Shown piece after piece: positions 24,336 to 45,745 of a DNA stretch of 64,000 nucleotides. The stretch covers positions 1 through 64,000 of the forward strand of contig JAJKHS010000116.1 in the NCBI GenBank assembly GCA_021154885.1, in the 5' to 3' direction. Source of the DNA: Thermoanaerobaculum sp. (GTDB lineage: Bacteria; Acidobacteriota; Thermoanaerobaculia; Multivoradales; UBA5704). Position numbers and translations under genes: made by a program. The stretch's first letter is position 1, and every line of letters starts with the position of its first letter. Below the pieces are notes generated by a model that saw only the letters and a program-made list of their open reading frames with translations, did no database searches and was not told the origin of the DNA.

Positions 24336-27300
24336 ATGAAGAACGCACTTCCTTGGCTGGCGCTGGCGCTCAGTCTGATGATTGGCTTCCCGGCAGCCCG
24401 CCTGGTGATGTCACCCCAGGAGAGGCCGGCGCCCGAAGTCGCCTCGGCTCAGGCTCCATCTCCAGTAGCGACTCCTGCCGTTACGGCGCCTGCCGGTGAT
24501 ACCTATGCATCCTGCAAGGCACCGCCGCCGCTGCCGGCCCCTTGTTGCTCATTGCCGCCGCCTCCTCCTCCAGCCTGGTGCGAGCCCGTGCGCCTGCTGG
24601 GCGAGTTCTTTGGCAAGTCGCTGGACTCCACAGCAAAACGCGACGACCTAATGACGATGCTGAAGCAAGCGGCTCTCGACGCGAGGTATGACCTCCACCT
24701 CATGGTGGCCCTGGTGCCGGCACCGCCTGATCCGCGGCTGGACCAGGCGCTGGAGGCCGTGCAGCGCGGCTTCGCACAGTCCGAATACTTGGCGGACCGC
24801 TTCTGGCTGCCGTGGGCCGGCGGGGATTCCAAGGACGCTGGCAGCAAGACGGCGCCGGGCCTCCTTCTCTTCCGCGGCCACGAGAAGCACGGAGCCTTCC
24901 TGAACAGCTTGGCTGTCGTCTTCGTCGTCGGGGAGACACCGAAGGCAGGGATTCAGAAAGTCGCCTTCCGCGAGGCTTTGAAATTGGAGTCCGTGCTGCA
25001 GGGAGCGGCCACCGATCCGACGATAGCGATCCTCGGTCCAACCTTCTCGGGCTCGATCGAGTCGCTGCGGCTGGCGGTGAGCTCCTGGCAGCGGCAGGAG
25101 ATTGGCCAGCAGGCCCCCCCGCCGCTCCTGTTTCGCGCCGCCACGGGCTCGGCGACGGCGACGGCGAAAGCCGTTGAGAAGCCGCTGGAGGGCGTGAGAG
25201 TCAAGATCTGCCGCACGGTGCTGCCGGACGAGATGCTGCAAGAGCAGACTCTCGGCTATCTGAGCAAAGAGATGGGGTGGGACTTGCGCCAGGTCGCCCT
25301 GCTCACCGAGGCGGACACGGCCTATGGCCGCAGCGTACTGACCACGGAAGGCCACAGCGTGCCGGTATTGCTCTCGTCGATCGTCAGTGTGCCATTTCCC
25401 AGCCACATCTCCGAGTTGCGGACCGCCACCGAAAAAGAGAAGGCTGCACAGGCCAAGGCCGCGGCAGCCACTCAGCCTGCGATCCCCGCCAATCGTCCGG
25501 AGCTCTCACTCGATCTCGCCGATCCTGGCCGGCCGGCCGATCTCGTTCCGACTTTCGACGCGTCCACTGTGCTCAGTAATGAGTTGGTGCTGGAGAACCT
25601 GTTGCGGGCGGTTTCCCGGGAAGGGATACGCTATGTCGGTATCCTGGCGACGGACGTTAAAGACAAGCTTTTCCTGGCTGAGCAGGTGCGGGCCCGGGCG
25701 CCTGACGCCATCCTCTTCACATTCGACAACAATCTGCTTTATGCCCATCCCCAGTACAACCAGACCATGGACGGTATGATCGTCCTTTCCAGCGCCCCTC
25801 TTTTCACCGAGGGGGCGCCCTGGCAACCGGGGTCGCTCTCGCCACCCGGTGGAGGAATGCGCCGGCAGTTCTCCAGCGAGCTCCAGCAGGGGCTCTTCGA
25901 GGCCGTACGCTACCTGCTGGGAAAGCGCGTCACGCGGCCCCGCGCCTGGATCATGGCCGTAGGCAACGGCTCATTGTGGCCTATCGCCCGCTTGAAAACG
26001 CCCCAGCCGCCGAGCGACTACCACTTGTGCAGCGAGATGGCGCTCAAGCCGGCCAGGCAGGGACCTATGCCGGAGCCCGGCCCTCCAGCCCCAGGGACTG
26101 GCTTCGCCAGCCGCGACGACCTCCAGGTGCTGCTGGTGGCGGTCGTGCTGTCGCTCTTCGCCGTGCGGCTGCGGCAGGTTGCCTTGCTCGCTCGCGTGGC
26201 GGGAGAACGGCCCAAGGGGTATACAGGGAACCGGCTCCTGCTGGTGCTCGGCACGGTGCTGCTGGCTCTCGCCGCCGGAGCGCTGCTGGCCGTGGGGAGC
26301 CTGCCCGCCTGGGGGCGCGGAATCGGCATCGATCGGCACGACGTGGATTGGCAATGGCCGCAGGTTGCCTACCTGGGCATGCTGGCCTTGGCCTATGCGT
26401 CGCTGGTAGTTGCCGCTGCCAGGGCGGCCCATTCACGGCTCGCGCCAGCGCGGACCGTGATCTGGATGTCAGGAGGCGTGGCGGCGCTGCTCCTCCTGGC
26501 TCTCGGCATGCGGTTCACCTGCATGCCGGGAGATCAGGTCGAGCTCTTTCATCTGCGGGCGCGGGCCATCTCGTCGGGGCTGTCGCCACTGATCTCGCTC
26601 GCCGCCATCGGCGGGGCCATCTACTCCTGGATACTCTGGGAGCTCAAACGACGCCGGTTGACCGCACGGCTGTCCATGGACTGCCCGGTGGCGACTCTAG
26701 GTGATCCGGCGATGGCAGGATCGGTCAAGACCCTCCGGGCGATCAACGGCCTCTTGGTCCATACTTTGCCGCGCGATCCTCGGCTTTGGCTAGCACCGGC
26801 TGTAGCTTTCCTGCCGCCGGTCTCACTGCTCTGGGCCACTGTACAGCCGGTCGCAGAGTCCCAAGGATATGGCCGCTTCTTCATCCTTTTCGTGACCCTG
26901 GCTCTGGCGCTCGCCGCCCTCTCCTATTACCGGTTCTTCCGCCTCTGGGTATGGACCTTGCGGATACTCCACCGGCTCGACAACGCCTCGCCGCGGGTGG
27001 CCGAGGCGTTTCAGGCGGTCTCCAAAGACCTCGGCTGGCGCCCCATCCAATCGTTCGGCTGGCAGATTCCGCCGTTCAAGTCGCTCACCCTCTCCCGGGG
27101 ACGGCTGCGGGCCCTGGTTGCCGCCGGCAAGCTCAAGCTGCCGGACGGGATGACGCCGCTGGAGAACTCCTTCAAGGACATCTTTGCCTACGAGACCGAC
27201 GACGGCTCACCGCAGGAGATCGACGCCCGCAACCGGCTGGAACGAATTTTTAGCGAGGTCTGCGAGAGCTTCGAAGGGCATGCCGGCGATTCCGAGGTGC

Positions 27301-27704
27301 GGCAGTTCGTGGCGCTGCGGGTGGCGGCCTGGCTGCGCTACGTCTTCGCCCACATGCGCAGTTGTCTGATCGGCGCCCTGACCTGCGCCCTGCTTTCGTT
27401 GATCGGAGTCACCGCCTACGCCTTCCAGCCGCGGCACTTCGTCTCCCTGGGGATCTGGCTCGCCCTGGCGGCTGCCATTGGGCTGACGCTGCTGGTCTTC
27501 GTGCAGATGGACCGCAACGCCACCCTGAGCTACATCGGCGGCACCACGGCGGGCAAGGTCAATTTCGACCGCACTTTCTTCTCCAAGCTCTTCACCTTTG
27601 TGGGCATCCCTCTGCTGGGCCTCATCGCCACCCAGTTCCCCGAGGTGGGGCACCTCCTCGGGCTGCTCGCCAGCCAACTCCTGCGCATCGCCGGCGGTGG
27701 GTAG
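24336..27704 (+). CDS. Large membrane protein with periplasmic-binding-protein-like (PBP1) receptor domain
   Basis: 1122 aa. N-terminal membrane anchor (residues 5-25), a Pro/Ala-rich linker with CCSLPPPPPPAWCE, then a soluble region (~residues 90-590) whose strands and turns resemble type-1 periplasmic binding proteins: TIAILGPTFSGSIESLRLA, YLSKEMGWDLRQVALLTE, YVGILATDVKDKLFLAEQV and DAILFTFDNNLLY. About seven membrane helices follow (residues ~600-880), then a soluble stretch (~900-1010; KSLTLSRGRLRALVAAGK, FEGHAGDSEVRQFVALR) and three C-terminal helices. No enzymatic domain is recognised. It could sense a small ligand outside and signal through the membrane. Unknown family to me. Confidence 0.6.
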   Translation: MKNALPWLALALSLMIGFPAARLVMSPQERPAPEVASAQAPSPVATPAVTAPAGDTYASCKAPPPLPAPCCSLPPPPPPAWCEPVRLLGEFFGKSLDSTAKRDDLMTMLKQAALDARYDLHLMVALVPAPPDPRLDQALEAVQRGFAQSEYLADRFWLPWAGGDSKDAGSKTAPGLLLFRGHEKHGAFLNSLAVVFVVGETPKAGIQKVAFREALKLESVLQGAATDPTIAILGPTFSGSIESLRLAVSSWQRQEIGQQAPPPLLFRAATGSATATAKAVEKPLEGVRVKICRTVLPDEMLQEQTLGYLSKEMGWDLRQVALLTEADTAYGRSVLTTEGHSVPVLLSSIVSVPFPSHISELRTATEKEKAAQAKAAAATQPAIPANRPELSLDLADPGRPADLVPTFDASTVLSNELVLENLLRAVSREGIRYVGILATDVKDKLFLAEQVRARAPDAILFTFDNNLLYAHPQYNQTMDGMIVLSSAPLFTEGAPWQPGSLSPPGGGMRRQFSSELQQGLFEAVRYLLGKRVTRPRAWIMAVGNGSLWPIARLKTPQPPSDYHLCSEMALKPARQGPMPEPGPPAPGTGFASRDDLQVLLVAVVLSLFAVRLRQVALLARVAGERPKGYTGNRLLLVLGTVLLALAAGALLAVGSLPAWGRGIGIDRHDVDWQWPQVAYLGMLALAYASLVVAAARAAHSRLAPARTVIWMSGGVAALLLLALGMRFTCMPGDQVELFHLRARAISSGLSPLISLAAIGGAIYSWILWELKRRRLTARLSMDCPVATLGDPAMAGSVKTLRAINGLLVHTLPRDPRLWLAPAVAFLPPVSLLWATVQPVAESQGYGRFFILFVTLALALAALSYYRFFRLWVWTLRILHRLDNASPRVAEAFQAVSKDLGWRPIQSFGWQIPPFKSLTLSRGRLRALVAAGKLKLPDGMTPLENSFKDIFAYETDDGSPQEIDARNRLERIFSEVCESFEGHAGDSEVRQFVALRVAAWLRYVFAHMRSCLIGALTCALLSLIGVTAYAFQPRHFVSLGIWLALAAAIGLTLLVFVQMDRNATLSYIGGTTAGKVNFDRTFFSKLFTFVGIPLLGLIATQFPEVGHLLGLLASQLLRIAGGG

Positions 27705-27768: not shown

Positions 27769-28698
27769 ATGACGAGAGCGAAGTGCGTCCGGCTGTGCGC
27801 CGGAATGGTGCTGGCCGTTCTGGCCGCCATGCCGGCGATGGCGCAGCAGCAGGACTTTTCGAAGGTGGAGATCAAGGCGATCCCGGCCGCCGGCAACGTC
27901 TACATGTTGCTGGGGTCGGGGGGGAACATCGGGGTCTCGGCCGGCCCCGACGGCGTCCTGATCGTGGACGACCAGTTCGCGCCGCTGGCCGACAAGATCC
28001 GGGAGGCCGTCAAGGGGATCAACCCCGGCAGGCTCAAGTTCGTGCTCAACACCCACTTCCACGGCGATCACACGGGGGGCAACCCGGTCTTCGGCACCGA
28101 GTCCACCATCATCGCCCACGACAACGTACGCCAGCGGCTGGCGGCCGGTTCCGTCGTCCGCGGCAACAAGACGGAGCCGATGGCGGCGGCGGGCCTGCCG
28201 GTGATCACCTTCGCGGACGCGGTCTCCGTCCACTTCAACGGCGAAGAGATCAAGGTGGTCCACTTCCCCCACGGCCACACGGACGGCGACAGCATCGTCT
28301 TCTTCACCAAGTCCAACGTGGTGCACATGGGCGACGACTTCTTCAACGGCCTCTTTCCCTTCGTCGACCTGGAGAGCGGCGGCAGCGTCCAGGGGTTGAC
28401 GGACGCCGTGGCCAAGGTGCTCTCTCAGATCCCGGCCGATGCCAAGGTCATCCCCGGCCACGGCCCGCTGTCGGACGTCGAGGGGCTCAAGAAGTTCCAC
28501 CGCATGCTGGTGGAGACCACGGCGGTCGTGCGCAAGGGGATGGCGGCCGGCAAGACCCTGGAGCAACTCCAGGCCGCCGGCCTGCCCGACGAGTGGAAGA
28601 GCTGGAGCTCCTTCATCGACACCAAGGGCTGGATCGCCACCATCCACGACAGCTTCGGAGCGGCGAAGAAGAACCCGGCGGGATCGAAGCACCACTAG
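27769..28698 (+). CDS. Exported metallo-beta-lactamase-fold hydrolase
   Basis: 309 aa with a signal peptide ending in MPAMAQQ. Zinc motif THFHGDHTGG (HxHxDH), then FPHGHTDGDSIVFF (third His) and KVIPGHGPLSD (last His) follow in the expected order. This is the subclass B3-like/SoxH-type periplasmic MBL-fold group rather than a proven antibiotic hydrolase; no specific substrate is deducible. The stop overlaps the convergent hemE stop by 4 bp. Confidence 0.88.
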   Translation: MTRAKCVRLCAGMVLAVLAAMPAMAQQQDFSKVEIKAIPAAGNVYMLLGSGGNIGVSAGPDGVLIVDDQFAPLADKIREAVKGINPGRLKFVLNTHFHGDHTGGNPVFGTESTIIAHDNVRQRLAAGSVVRGNKTEPMAAAGLPVITFADAVSVHFNGEEIKVVHFPHGHTDGDSIVFFTKSNVVHMGDDFFNGLFPFVDLESGGSVQGLTDAVAKVLSQIPADAKVIPGHGPLSDVEGLKKFHRMLVETTAVVRKGMAAGKTLEQLQAAGLPDEWKSWSSFIDTKGWIATIHDSFGAAKKNPAGSKHH

Positions 28699-29735
28699 GG
28701 GTTGAGGGACAACCGCTTCACCGCCTCCACGAACGCCTTCGCGTTCTCGACCGGGACCATGGGCAGGATGCCGTGGCCGAGGTTGACCACGTGGGGGCCA
28801 CCGCTCCCCTCCCGGAGGAGGTCCGCCGTGCGGCGCTCGATCTCCGGGATGGGGGCGAGCAGGGCCGCCGGGTCGAGGTTCCCTTGCAGGACGCGTGGAC
28901 CCACGATCCGGCGCACGGTGGAGAGCGGCTGGCGCCAGTCGACCGACAGCACGTCCACGGGCAGCTCCGCCAGGGCGGGGAGCAGGTGCGAGCCGCCGTT
29001 GACGTAGTAGATGAGCGGCACTTCACCTTTCAGCGCGTCGACGATCCTGCGCAGCGGCGGGAGGGCGACGGCGCGCCAGCGCTCCAGGTCCAGCAGGCCG
29101 CCCCAGGTGTCGAAGAGCTGGAGGGCTTGAGCGCCGGCGGCGATCTGGCCTTTCAGGTAGGCGATCGAGGTGCCGGCGACGCGGTCGAGGAGCAGGGCGA
29201 GCCCCTCGGGGTCGCCATAGCTCCAGGCCAGGAGGTGCTCGAAGTGCTTCGAGCCGCCGCCCTCGACGAGATAGGCGGCGAGCGTCCACGGTGTGCCGCC
29301 GAAGCCGAGGACGGGTACCCGGCCGTCGAGCTCGCGACGGACGAGGCGCAGGGCGGCGAAGACATAGCCCAGGGTCTCGTCCACCTCCGGGTTGCGCAGG
29401 CGGGCGACGTCCTCGCGGGTGCGCACCGGGTGAGGGAAGCTGGGGCCGTCCCCCTTGACGAACTGCAACTCGGCGCCCATGGCCTCCAGCGGCAGCAGGA
29501 TGTCGGCGAAGAGGATGGCCGCGTCGACGCCGAGGATATCGACCGGCTGGATCGTCACCTCGGCGGCCAGCTCGGGGGTCTTGCACAGGGTGAGGAAGTC
29601 CACCTTCTGGCGGATCGCCCGGTATTCGGGGAGGTAGCGGCCGGCCTGGCGCATGATCCATACGGGCCGGCGCTCCGTGGCCTCGCCACGGCAGGTGCGG
29701 AGAAAGAGATCGTTCACGGCCCGGGAGGATAGCAT
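28695..29735 (-). CDS. hemE: Uroporphyrinogen decarboxylase
   Basis: 346 aa. The UroD signature WIMRQAGRYLPEYR is at residues 26-39, and GFGGTPWTLAAYLVEG and LIYYVNGGSHLLPAL follow; the conserved Asp lies in LFADILLPLEAMG. Decarboxylates uroporphyrinogen III to coproporphyrinogen III in heme synthesis, in the cytoplasm. Convergent with the MBL-fold gene. The ATG at 29735 was kept; an alternative GTG lies seven codons on. Confidence 0.97.
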   Translation of the reverse strand: MLSSRAVNDLFLRTCRGEATERRPVWIMRQAGRYLPEYRAIRQKVDFLTLCKTPELAAEVTIQPVDILGVDAAILFADILLPLEAMGAELQFVKGDGPSFPHPVRTREDVARLRNPEVDETLGYVFAALRLVRRELDGRVPVLGFGGTPWTLAAYLVEGGGSKHFEHLLAWSYGDPEGLALLLDRVAGTSIAYLKGQIAAGAQALQLFDTWGGLLDLERWRAVALPPLRRIVDALKGEVPLIYYVNGGSHLLPALAELPVDVLSVDWRQPLSTVRRIVGPRVLQGNLDPAALLAPIPEIERRTADLLREGSGGPHVVNLGHGILPMVPVENAKAFVEAVKRLSLNP

Positions 29736-29796
29736 TCCCTCTGCAAGAGGAGGGGGTCGGGGTGACGAGGGTTCGCGTGGAGTACACTGGCAGTCG

Positions 29797-31602
29797 ATGT
29801 TGAGACTCGTCGCTTATGCCCCCGATGGTGTCCGGCGCTTTCCCGTTCACCGCAGTGAGCTGATCATCGGGAGCTTCCCCGAGTGCGACATCTGCCTCCC
29901 CTACACCGGCGTGGCGCAGCGGCACGCGCGGCTGCTCTACGACGGCAACCAGTTGCGGATCGAGGATCTGGGCAGCCGCCGCGGCCTCCTGGTGAGCGGC
30001 CGCAAGGTGAAGGAGGCGTCGCTGGAGGTGCTGGACGAGATCCGGCTGGGCGGGGTGACCCTGCTGGTCGAAGACGTGGTCCCCGGACCGGAGAAGCCCC
30101 CGCCGCCGACACCCGCGGAGCCGATCGGACCGCCGCGCATCACCCCGGAGCGCATGATCGAGCACCTGAACCGGATCTCCGAGTGGGTGCTGGCCGACGC
30201 CGAGAGCCGTACCACCTCCGAAGCCCTGGTCCAGGAGGTGCTCGCCGACTTCGGCGGCGGCGCCCTCTTCCTCCTCCTGGGCGATGAGGAGAACGCCGGC
30301 GTCAAGCTGGTGGTGGCAACCGATCAGGCGTGGCTGGCCAGCGGCGAGGGGTTGCTCGAGCAGATCCTCCGCCGTCGCGCTGCCGAACCCGCCGCAGCGG
30401 CGAACCGCTGCTTCGAGGGCGAGCTGGCCGGCGCGCCGGCCTGGATCTGCCATCTCACCTTCGGCGCCATGGACCGCAAGTACGCGATGATGGTCGCCTT
30501 CCCCCGTTTCCGGCCGGAGGAGCTGGGGTGGTCGCCGATGGCGGCCCTGAGCGGCCTCGGCCACCTCCTGGTGCTGGGCCTGGTGCACCACGTGGGGTGG
30601 TACGAGCCCATCCTGCCGGGCCACCCGGGACAGCAGGACCTGACCCTGGACCCGAACCTCGTGGTGGGCGAGTCGCTGGCCATGAAGCAGGTCGTGGAGC
30701 AGCTCCGGGCCGCGGTCGATCCCCCGGTCCACGTGCTCCTCTCCGGCGAGCCGGGGGTGGGCAAGGACCTCCTTGCCCGCTCCCTCCATCTCTCGGGGCC
30801 GCGGCGGCATGGGCCGTTCGTGATCGCGAGCTGCGGCGGCGCGCGTCCCTTGCAGATCGAGGCCGACCTCTTCGGCGCCGAGGTGCCCGGCAAGGGCGGT
30901 CCCGTCCGGCGCGAGGGCAAGCTCCTGCTGGCCCACGGCGGCACCCTCTTCCTCGACGAGGTGGAGCAGCTTCCCATGGAGCTTCAGGCCCGGCTGGTCC
31001 GCTTCCTGCGCTCGGGCGCGGTGGAGCCCGCGGGGAGCACCGAGGCCCACGCCGTCGACGTGCGCCTGGTGGTGGGGAGCCGCGGCACGCTCGACTCGGT
31101 GGTGACCCGCGACCTCTTCCGGGTCGATCTCGCCTACCGGCTGTCGCAGCTCGTCATCGACGTGCCGCCGCTGCGCGACCGCCGGGAGGATCTGCCGCTG
31201 CTCATTCAGTCCTACATCAACCGGTTCTGCCACGAAACGGGCAAGCGTATGCAGGGGATCACAGTCAAGGCCATGTCCGCCCTGCTGAGCTACGACTACC
31301 CGGGCAACCTGGCGGAGCTGGAGAACATCGCCCGCCAGCTCGTCTACATGGCGCCGGCCAAGGGGCCGGTGGACGTCAACCTGCTGCCGGACCGGGTGCG
31401 CAACGGTACCCTCATGGCCACGACGCGGGTGGACGCCGCCTCGGACCTGGAGCTGGAGCACCTGGTCAGCGGCACCGAGCAGAGCGCCATCCGCGAGGCC
31501 TTGCGCCGCACCAACGGCAACAAGTCCCAGGCCGCCCGCCTCCTGGGCTTGTCGCGCAACGGCCTGGCGATCAAGATGGAGCGCTACGGGCTGAAAGCCT
31601 GA
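29797..31602 (+). CDS. FHA + AAA + Fis-type regulator lacking GAFTGA
   Basis: 601 aa. An FHA domain (residues ~5-95; ELIIGSFPECDICLP, HARLLYDGNQLRIEDLGSRRG) comes first, then a GAF-like sensor (~110-270), an AAA+ core with Walker A GEPGVGKD (~317) and Walker B GGTLFLDEVEQLP (~381), and a C-terminal Fis HTH (NGNKSQAARLLGLSRNG). Bacterial enhancer-binding proteins carry GAFTGA after DLFG; here that place reads DLFGAEVPGKGG, so sigma-54 contact may be lost. FHA points to phosphothreonine input from a Ser/Thr kinase not in the window. The gene is divergent from hemE. Confidence 0.85.
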   Translation: MLRLVAYAPDGVRRFPVHRSELIIGSFPECDICLPYTGVAQRHARLLYDGNQLRIEDLGSRRGLLVSGRKVKEASLEVLDEIRLGGVTLLVEDVVPGPEKPPPPTPAEPIGPPRITPERMIEHLNRISEWVLADAESRTTSEALVQEVLADFGGGALFLLLGDEENAGVKLVVATDQAWLASGEGLLEQILRRRAAEPAAAANRCFEGELAGAPAWICHLTFGAMDRKYAMMVAFPRFRPEELGWSPMAALSGLGHLLVLGLVHHVGWYEPILPGHPGQQDLTLDPNLVVGESLAMKQVVEQLRAAVDPPVHVLLSGEPGVGKDLLARSLHLSGPRRHGPFVIASCGGARPLQIEADLFGAEVPGKGGPVRREGKLLLAHGGTLFLDEVEQLPMELQARLVRFLRSGAVEPAGSTEAHAVDVRLVVGSRGTLDSVVTRDLFRVDLAYRLSQLVIDVPPLRDRREDLPLLIQSYINRFCHETGKRMQGITVKAMSALLSYDYPGNLAELENIARQLVYMAPAKGPVDVNLLPDRVRNGTLMATTRVDAASDLELEHLVSGTEQSAIREALRRTNGNKSQAARLLGLSRNGLAIKMERYGLKA

Positions 31603-43906: not shown

Positions 43907-45205
43907 ATGGATTACTCCGATTTCGCTTTGCATTTTGGACCAAGCGAGAGTCAGCAGAGCTATAGAGTCACTGCGTGCTCTGCGGCAGGAAGGGCCGCAG
44001 GTCTCTTTCGCATCCCGTCGGCGCTCCAACAAGGAGGTGAGCTGTTGGGGGAGCTGTGGCAGACCACCCCCGATCGGACGCCACGAGGATACCCTGATGG
44101 CTCTCCTTCACACACTCCACTGGCCGCCGAACGGGTGGGGATCGAGCTCTTCCGTGCCCTATTCGACGAGTCGGTCCTCCGGTTGCTCGACCGCGAGACA
44201 GGGCGAATCGAGAGCCGACCGCAGGTGGGTCTCCGTCTCCGGCTAAGTTTCGAGGTCGACGGTCAGGATTTGGTGCGGCTCTGCAGCCTCCCTTGGGAAC
44301 TTCTCTATGATCCTCGGGAAAATGGCCGACGCTCCCAGCCTATCGTCCGCTCGATCGCCGTTCCCAGGCCTGCTCGCCCTCTCACTTTTGCGGAGCCGCT
44401 GCGCGTCCTCGCCGTCGCCTCGCGGCCCTCGGGCCTTCCAGCCCTAAGTCTGGACCAGGAGCAACGCACTCTTGTGCAGTCCTGGACGCTAGAACCCAGA
44501 GTGGAATTGACTGTCCTTGACACGCCGACTCCTCATGAATTGCGTCGTGTGCTGCTAAAGAGGAATTTTCAGATTCTGCACTTCATGGGTCATGGCACCC
44601 TGGAGGCGAAAAACGGGGAAGGTTCCCTGGTGCTTGGCAGTTTCTCGAATGAGCCCCGACTGGTGACCGGGGAGGAGCTCGCCCTGCTGTTGCGTGATGC
44701 ATCGAGTCTTCGTATGGTGGTCTTGGACGCCTGCCACACAAGCCGCCTCCCCGCAGGTGAAGTCAACCCTTTCGCCGGAGTCGCCACCGCGCTAATCAAG
44801 AACGGGCTCGCGGCTGTGTTGGCCATGCAGCTCCCCATTTCGGACCGGGCAGCTCTCGCCTTCAACCACACCTTTTACCAGCGTTTGGCGGCGGGCGAAC
44901 CGGTGGAGGTTGCGGTGGGCGAAGGGCGTCTCGCGATCGCCCGAGCGGATCCTCAGGAACGGGCAATGCCAGGTCTCTATCTTCCTAACTCTGAACGGCT
45001 CGTTGACGCCGCAAGGCAGGAGCGAGACCGTTATGCAGAGCTCGTCGACAAGAAGTTCCAGTCGCCGCTAACCGTATCAGAGCAGGCCGAGCTGCTGAGG
45101 TTGCAGGAATACCTCGATGAGGCGGATGCGAAGTTCTATGAGCCGATCGAGGAAAAGTTGGAATCGGTGCTGACGAAGCTTCGTCAGCGATCACAGGCGA
45201 GGTGA
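43907..45205 (+). CDS. CHAT-domain caspase-like protease
   Basis: 432 aa. N-terminal ~150 residues: an unknown domain with LSFEVDGQDLVRLCSLPWELL, a recurring feature ahead of CHAT domains. CHAT core ~165-365: RVLAVASRPSG, then LHFMGHG with catalytic His229 and VVLDACHTSRLP with catalytic Cys276, then ALIKNGLAAVLAMQLPISDRAALAF, the usual end of the fold. A C-terminal helical tail (~370-432; LVDKKFQSPLTVSEQAELLRLQ) may bind a partner. CHAT proteases are known effectors in Craspase and gasdermin defence systems. ATG with AAGGGAA upstream. Ends 3 bp before the HNH gene, so one operon. Lower GC than the neighbours. Confidence 0.85.
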   Translation: MDYSDFALHFGPSESQQSYRVTACSAAGRAAGLFRIPSALQQGGELLGELWQTTPDRTPRGYPDGSPSHTPLAAERVGIELFRALFDESVLRLLDRETGRIESRPQVGLRLRLSFEVDGQDLVRLCSLPWELLYDPRENGRRSQPIVRSIAVPRPARPLTFAEPLRVLAVASRPSGLPALSLDQEQRTLVQSWTLEPRVELTVLDTPTPHELRRVLLKRNFQILHFMGHGTLEAKNGEGSLVLGSFSNEPRLVTGEELALLLRDASSLRMVVLDACHTSRLPAGEVNPFAGVATALIKNGLAAVLAMQLPISDRAALAFNHTFYQRLAAGEPVEVAVGEGRLAIARADPQERAMPGLYLPNSERLVDAARQERDRYAELVDKKFQSPLTVSEQAELLRLQEYLDEADAKFYEPIEEKLESVLTKLRQRSQAR

Positions 45206-45208
45206 GAG

Positions 45209-45745
45209 TTGGCGGTCTTCCGTCGGCGTGAATCACCTCCATCTCCCGTCAATCATTACTCCGAGTATCGTCCCTGCGTCCGGGACGACTTTCAGGAGTG
45301 CTGCGCGTATTGCCTCTTGCATGAGGATTGGGCGGCAGGTCGAGAGAATTTCGAGTTGGACCACTTTCGACCCAAATCTCTGTCACAGTTCGCCAGCCTT
45401 GCAAAAGAATTCTACAATCTCTACTACGCCTGTCACCCCTGTAATCACCTCAAAGGCAGTGCTTGGCCCGAGCCTTCCCTGGAAGCTGCTGGCTACGTCT
45501 TTCTGGACTTCTGTGCCGAGACGTTCTCGAGCCACTTCCATGAGAACGCCGACGGGGCCTGGCAGCCTTTGAGTCGCGGCGCGGAATACACTCTGGAGAG
45601 ACTGCGACTGAACCGGAAGCACCTCGTGAGAATCCGCTTACTACTCCGGGAGATTGCGTCGGCGAGAGGAGTCCAGGTCGTCGATTGGAATCTTCCAGCA
45701 AGGGATCAACTTCGGGAGCTTCTGGAAGGGATCGTCGACTCCTGA
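45209..45745 (+). CDS. HNH-family nuclease paired with the CHAT protease
   Basis: 178 aa. TTG start preceded by GAGGTGAGAG and 3 bp after the CHAT stop. Zinc-HNH motif in order: C32-x2-C35 (CAYC), D51-H52 (ELDHFRPKS), C75-x2-C78 with N79-H80 (YACHPCNHLKG). This is the typical Cys4-type HNH nuclease with ELDHxxP. The C-terminal ~70 residues are helical (LERLRLNRKHLVRIRLLLREIA) and may bind DNA or the protease. DNA cleavage is inferred from motif, target unknown. CHAT and HNH together suggest an effector pair, perhaps with the protease controlling the nuclease. Confidence 0.85.
   Translation: MAVFRRRESPPSPVNHYSEYRPCVRDDFQECCAYCLLHEDWAAGRENFELDHFRPKSLSQFASLAKEFYNLYYACHPCNHLKGSAWPEPSLEAAGYVFLDFCAETFSSHFHENADGAWQPLSRGAEYTLERLRLNRKHLVRIRLLLREIASARGVQVVDWNLPARDQLRELLEGIVDS

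Follow-up and report, generated by a model that had tools for sequence, protein, structure and literature searches.

A predicted PBP1 domain tethered to ten membrane helices: a probable ligand sensor from an undescribed family in Acidobacteriota

Introduction

Most known flytrap receptors of bacteria either form part of a kinase, cyclase or chemoreceptor or work as free proteins in transport. The flytraps of the sensor kinases BvgS and EvgS are of the PBP2 type. In both proteins, the flytrap is carried on a kinase (PMC4352136). Here we describe a protein of 1122 residues, hereafter the receptor, encoded in a stretch of 64,000 nucleotides of Thermoanaerobaculum sp. (contig JAJKHS010000116.1, positions 1 to 64,000; hereafter the window). 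It joins a predicted PBP1-type flytrap to a large membrane domain with no recognisable output, and belongs to an undescribed family in which the cleft is strongly conserved. The best reading of the data, and one that we consider probable, is that the receptor is an inner-membrane ligand sensor that acts through a partner.

Results

The receptor gene

The reading frame of the receptor starts with ATG and runs uninterrupted to its end (Table 1). Its GC content at the first, second and third codon positions is 0.67, 0.50 and 0.81, respectively, and it is the third position that differs most from the copy in a congener, G002 (locus L008). Together, this composition and this pattern of differences indicate that the open reading frame (ORF) is a coding gene. 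The G002 protein, of 1124 residues, aligned end to end with the window protein at 56% identity. In a further congener, G001 (L009), the C-terminal part of the receptor was present, with 59% identity to the window protein. The host assembly, of 8.2 Mb, is acidobacterial.

A predicted PBP1 domain with a conserved cleft

The receptor was modelled with AlphaFold2 using an alignment of 25 family members. The full model had a mean predicted local distance difference test (pLDDT) score of 73 and a predicted TM-score (pTM) of 0.70. Residues 116–563 displayed the alternation of strands and helices of a two-lobe α/β domain, mostly at pLDDT 80–90. PDB structures were then compared by running VIA-align on Foldseek candidates. 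According to these comparisons, the domain superimposed on 4evs with a Z-score of 19.3 (2.9 Å over 301 residues), on LivK (3td9) with a Z-score of 19.1 and on AmiC (1qnl) with a Z-score of 19.0, the closest structures being amino-acid and aromatic-acid binding proteins. Both the model and the superpositions thus showed two α/β lobes of PBP1 topology. The prediction of a PBP1 domain at residues 116–563 is of good confidence, the match being far above chance, and the description of the protein as a membrane-tethered PBP1 receptor is close to established. An initial annotation, made from the sequence alone, had proposed a PBP1-like N-terminal domain, to be dropped if a structural search showed no PBP1 similarity; the proposal was upheld by structure prediction and comparison with the PDB, though not by a sequence-profile match. 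The Pfam PBP1 families ANF_receptor (PF01094) and Peripla_BP_6 (PF13458) did not match the window protein and reached E 0.1–0.25 in single relatives only. Likewise, profile-profile comparison with LivJ and LivK of E. coli detected no similarity (probability 0.2, with a two-sequence template).

Across 23 family members, P159, P174, E200 and G205 of this domain were conserved, as were the motifs GPxFSGS (235, 238, 239), SGxAT (271), AxLxExxTxYG (321, 325, 328), FPxxISxLR (355, 362), TDxxDxLFLA (443) and DLLY. The loop motifs were near-identical among these members despite overall identities of 20–56%. Several of them directly follow strands predicted in the AlphaFold2 model (229–233, 265–270, 320–325, 433–437 and 459–462). 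In PBP1 proteins, loops after such strands line the ligand cleft. As several of the conserved motifs are predicted to occupy such loops, the family members likely share a ligand.

The membrane half

Hydropathy over the family located an N-terminal helix near residue 17 and about ten further helices, at residues 607, 644, 686, 716, 757, 829, 853, 1018, 1047 and 1089. This agrees with the initial annotation, which had counted some ten helices, arranged as two groups, and a soluble insert; the insert spans residues 866–1005, approximately, and is weakly conserved in sequence. Inspection of the N-terminus by eye revealed no clear cleavage site or lipobox. In the second membrane group, R1060, P1092 and P1102 are near invariant in the family alignments. 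Loops rich in arginine and lysine follow the first, third, fifth, seventh and ninth transmembrane helices (TM1, TM3, TM5, TM7 and TM9); by the positive-inside rule, this pattern would place the flytrap outside and the insert in the cytoplasm.

Scans against Pfam and NCBIfam detected no kinase, cyclase, MCP or ATPase domain in the receptor. Thus, the cytoplasmic kinase, cyclase or MCP domain that marks sensor histidine kinases, GGDEF proteins and chemoreceptors was not found in these scans. When folded alone, the C-terminal half had a pLDDT of 72, and its comparison with the PDB yielded nothing above the background of helical proteins (best Z-score 8.0, to a toxin helix bundle; best Foldseek E 0.04). 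Helical toxin bundles and pyrophosphatases, the top hits for this half, scored at background level and were set aside. Four Foldseek matches fell under E 0.001 (1.7e-4 to 3.1e-4), all of them to class C G-protein-coupled receptors (GPCRs). These superpositions had TM-scores near 0.2 and root-mean-square deviations >25 Å, because the superposition is real for the flytrap only. In these models, the GPCR matches appear to reflect the presence of a flytrap and helices in one chain and are no proof of a common membrane domain.

Table 1. Features of the receptor gene and of the adjoining hydrolase gene in the window
Feature	Coordinates	Strand	Evidence or remarks
Receptor gene, 1122 aa	24336..27704	+	intact ORF; end-to-end homologue in congener; family alignments
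N-terminal membrane anchor or uncleaved signal (residues 6-24)	24351..24407	+	hydropathy; helix 6-24 in AlphaFold2 model
Proline-rich flexible linker (residues about 27-81)	24414..24578	+	pLDDT <50 at residues 1-60, 62-66
Predicted extracytoplasmic PBP1 / Venus-flytrap domain (residues 116-563)	24681..26024	+	AlphaFold2 pLDDT mostly 80-90; VIA-align
Cleft-loop motif GPTFSGS (residues 234-240)	25035..25055	+	P235, S238, G239 identical in 23/23 members
Cleft-loop motif TGSAT (residues 270-274)	25143..25157	+	G271 identical in 23/23
Cleft-loop motif TEADTAYG (residues 324-331)	25305..25328	+	E325 23/23, T328 22/23, G331 21/23
Cleft-loop motif TDVKDKLFLA (residues 439-448)	25650..25679	+	D443 23/23, F446 and L447 22/23
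Cleft-loop motif DNNLLYA (residues 464-470)	25725..25745	+	family consensus DLLY; D/N466, L468 conserved
First membrane group TM1-TM5 (residues 593-778)	26112..26669	+	hydropathy, models; TM1-TM4 pLDDT only about 45-70
TM6-TM7 (residues about 816-865)	26781..26930	+	hydropathy, models
Soluble helical insert (residues about 866-1005)	26931..27350	+	helical in models, pLDDT mostly 75-93
Second membrane group TM8-TM10 (residues 1006-1118)	27351..27689	+	hydropathy; conserved Y-x-F-x-P and QMxRDxxLS
Secreted metallo-beta-lactamase-fold gene	27769..28698	+	64 bp 3' of receptor; Lactamase_B E 8e-12

Family and distribution

Sequence searches of Pfam, NCBIfam, PHROGs, PADLOC and PDB sequences returned no match for the receptor, and PADLOC models matched neither the window protein nor any further receptor included in the scan. 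The family is undescribed: no named family among those tested takes it, and the initial annotation's statement that no named family has this order of domains stands against Pfam, NCBIfam, PADLOC and PHROGs. When 84,980 species were scanned with two short patterns, eight loci emerged, all acidobacterial, and the family has so far been met only in Acidobacteriota. Profile searches within this phylum found the receptor in 16 of 247 genomes and then in 24 of 396, and in 5 of 193 genomes of one class; its distribution is patchy. Relatives share 20–56% identity. Plasmids and viral contigs contained no match, leaving spread by plasmids or viruses unsupported.

One relative has a different build. The 984-residue protein at L065 (9111–12065) has the same type of flytrap, retaining the TDVHDK motif, on a different membrane part, and is a sister architecture. 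The occurrence of the flytrap on another membrane domain is as expected for a modular sensor. Several other copies contain an in-frame stop or are divided between two frames (L052 8024–11725; L059 7722–11363; L057 9940–13049; L056 7575–9656), perhaps through decay or assembly error. In two of them, from genomes of different genera in one family, the stop is TAG.

Gene neighbours

The neighbourhood of receptor and metallo-hydrolase genes is retained in three genomes of the genus (the window genome, G002 and G001). A MacB/FtsX permease gene lies immediately upstream of the receptor in the window; at the G002 locus, a different gene precedes the receptor and MacB is absent. We therefore rejected the upstream MacB and HlyD genes as operon partners, their arrangement not being retained in the congener. 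Two genes 3' of the receptor, past hemE on the opposite strand, the window contains a gene for a sigma-54 activator with an FHA domain (29653–31602, +). In relatives of another genus, a sigma-54 activator adjoins the receptor directly.

In five species of one genus (G221, G236, G454, G559 and G564), the receptor gene comes after that of a sigma-54 activator, with both on one strand. A papain-like cysteine protease gene separates the two in four of these species; no protease gene was called in this position at L060 (G221). Some of these runs diverge from two further genes, a small one and one for a GH108 endolysin (PHROG lysis family, E 2e-43). The receptor/endolysin locus and a gene cluster of an extracellular contractile injection system (eCIS) each have, next to a sigma-54 activator, a small winged-helix-like gene (L061 4696–5091; L060 5817–6146; L109 6604–6918). 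In G438, the order is an ECF-like sigma factor (called by eye), a Ser/Thr kinase, the receptor and, 5 bp on, an N-acetylmuramidase. A patatin gene starts 5 bp after the receptor in G272, with an amidase further on, and precedes the receptor in G104; in G064, an OmpR-type regulator follows the receptor. Other copies have housekeeping neighbours. LivHM permease and LivGF ATPase genes, with which the binding protein of Liv transporters clusters, were not among the annotated neighbours in the window or the relatives. An unnamed membrane protein of ~350 residues, without Pfam or PHROG match, is encoded near the receptor in two families of the phylum (L053 12428–13489; L062 12478–13533).

The initial annotation had drawn attention to CHAT and other effector genes near homologues, and this was borne out weakly. 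In one relative (L051), the opposite strand carries a CHAT-TPR gene some 1.1 kb downstream of the receptor; in another species of the same genus (L149), a 919-residue ORF of equal size occupies this position. By contrast, the CHAT gene of the window is 16 kb from the receptor, with unrelated genes between. EACC1 and CHAT were rejected as general partners, the evidence being a weak match in one member and occurrence in one genus, respectively. The window CHAT-protease gene itself (43907–45205; Pfam E 3e-29) is followed after 3 bp by an HNH-nuclease gene; the pair (43907–45745, +) lies in a stretch of G+C 0.61, compared to about 0.70, and is possibly a two-gene conflict module without link to the receptor.

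Co-occurrence with a contractile injection system

In two species of one genus (G256 and G507), the receptor gene is divergent from an eCIS sheath gene across a gap of 658 and 663 bp, respectively. On the sheath side of the gap, 186 bp are 83% identical between the two species. The window genome has a contractile system of the G256 type on another contig, C133. This eCIS-type cluster (L106 14824–19999, and L107) contains sheath, tube, AAA ATPase and baseplate genes and is of the same type as those of G256 and G507. The window genome also encodes a second, phage-like contractile tail on contig C138 (L104).

We used the tube protein of the C133 system as the query for co-occurrence. The tube was detected in 12 of 247 genomes, 6 of which carry the receptor (P 2e-5), and in 5 of 11 further receptor genomes. 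Over 396 genomes, the receptor was present in 9 of the 27 tube-positive and 15 of the 369 tube-negative genomes (P 5e-6). The co-occurrence was retained when the window genome was left out (P 3e-5) and at the genus level (P 4e-5), while the 149 additional genomes alone yielded P 0.048. These samples overlap, relatedness was handled only roughly, and the hypothesis was formed after one adjacency. Genomes with other contractile sheath types had no excess of the receptor (1 of 16). Accordingly, we rejected any contractile sheath as a partner: PF17482 gave P 0.004, nearly all from one tube type, and other sheaths gave nothing.

Physical linkage of receptor and eCIS was confined to one genus; elsewhere, the two are on different contigs or hundreds of kb apart. 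The receptor was absent from the searched stretches of eCIS loci in other genomes and so was not found inside these clusters across lineages, as a component of the eCIS would be. In the genus with the endolysin operon, the sampled receptor-positive species lack the tube and the one tube-positive species lacks the receptor. The sigma-54 activator at the eCIS was discounted as proof of a link to the receptor, since such activators are common.

Discussion

Overall, we propose that the N-terminal helix anchors the chain and that a proline-rich linker leads to the PBP1 domain, whose fold is given by structure prediction and which would sit outside the inner membrane. The two lobes would close on a small polar ligand. 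This is probably an amino acid, a peptide fragment or a similar anion, a ligand class suggested by the fold of the nearest structures and the conserved cleft loops. Lobe closure would then be relayed to the predicted ten-helix membrane domain and its cytoplasmic helical insert. No enzymatic output could be recognised in the membrane domain, which therefore most likely works through a partner protein. Relatives have genes of transcription regulators or kinases as neighbours, along with genes for proteases or envelope-degrading enzymes, and the receptor would thus usually, and probably, lead to these enzymes being expressed or activated. The conserved partner in the window would be the secreted metallo-hydrolase encoded directly 3' of the receptor. 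Several points weigh against this reading. The model of the membrane half is of moderate confidence, and this half may have channel or transporter activity. Moreover, the neighbours vary between lineages, several relatives having housekeeping neighbours only, and the copies that are interrupted by stops or split suggest that the gene is dispensable in places.

The initial annotation had left the choice between a ligand sensor and a transport-associated receptor. The latter, in which the PBP1 domain would pass a solute on to the membrane domain of the same chain in the manner of fusions of binding protein and permease, is the main rival to the sensor and in our view unlikely. It would account for the nearest structures of the soluble domain being ABC solute-binding proteins, for the size of the ten-helix membrane half and for the MacB/FtsX permease gene just upstream in the window. 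However, relatives keep no ATPase or permease partner alongside, the MacB gene is missing from the congeneric locus, and comparison of the membrane half with the PDB gave no transporter fold above background level. A single flytrap joined to an unknown permease would also be new in itself. Judged by the neighbours of relatives, the receptor is most likely a ligand sensor rather than a transporter. The EACC1 and CHAT matches raised a further alternative, that of a surface or immunity-type part of a conflict system whose PBP1 domain would serve for pattern recognition, which is very improbable: the EACC1 match (E 0.096) occurred in 1 of 9 members, at noise level, the CHAT-TPR gene is on the opposite strand and limited to one genus, and the receptor has no PADLOC match.

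A role as the trigger of lysis and eCIS is attractive and under-supported. Here, the receptor would sense an outside cue and turn on lysis enzymes together with the production or release of eCIS, a circuit that we consider quite unlikely. The divergent receptor–sheath pair in two species of one genus is consistent with it, as are the endolysin adjoining the operon of sigma-54 activator, protease and receptor in another genus, the homologue of the small regulator gene of that locus beside an eCIS in a third lineage, and the co-occurrence with one tail-tube type across the 396 genomes. Nevertheless, the hypothesis is post hoc, linkage is limited to one genus, and the additional 149 genomes gave only P 0.048. 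Receptor and tube occur in separate sampled species of the endolysin-operon genus, and a shared soil or predatory life style could account for the co-occurrence. More doubtful still is the broader proposition of a bacterial receptor class with the layout of class C GPCRs, in which a flytrap with a new polytopic membrane domain would detect a small molecule outside the cell and set off a programme of lysis and contractile injection in Acidobacteriota. If the receptor is a ligand sensor, as we favour, it would represent a mode of crossing the membrane so far undescribed in bacteria. The gene neighbours seen in two genera would further offer a way to test when soil bacteria choose to lyse or to release contractile particles.

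Comparison with known systems

With respect to the eCIS gene clusters (PMC8213781), the receptor is a divergent neighbour in one acidobacterial genus that co-occurs at genome level; it is neither a structural nor a cargo component and is usually encoded outside the cluster. The words sigma54, receptor, patatin, periplasmic and peroxidase, looked for in the text of that study, led to no description of such a component. The receptor resembles BvgS and EvgS (PMC4352136, PMC5573083) in its predicted combination of a flytrap outside and a signal across the membrane, but its flytrap is PBP1-type and it has no kinase domain.

In animals, the class C GPCRs, such as mGlu and GABA-B, have an extracellular flytrap joined to a polytopic helix bundle, as the receptor is predicted to have. 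In contrast to these proteins, the receptor is predicted by hydropathy to have about ten helices rather than seven, possesses an extra N-terminal anchor and lacks a cysteine-rich linker; the lack of a match above background for its membrane half does not in itself argue against a seven-helix rhodopsin-like fold, and we make no claim of common descent for the membrane part.

The PBP1 solute-binding proteins (LivJ/LivK, the aromatic-acid binding RPA0985 and UrtA) and the amide sensor AmiC differ from the receptor in sequence, the identity being ~10% with no profile-level match to LivJ/LivK or the Pfam PBP1 families. In contrast to the solute-binding proteins, the receptor is membrane-tethered, fused to ten helices and not encoded beside the genes of ABC binding-protein transporters. 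Nonetheless, its residues 116–563 are predicted to have the same fold (Z-scores of 17–19 over ~300 residues at ~3 Å), and its conserved motifs, as in PBP1 proteins, are in the loops after strands around the interlobe cleft.
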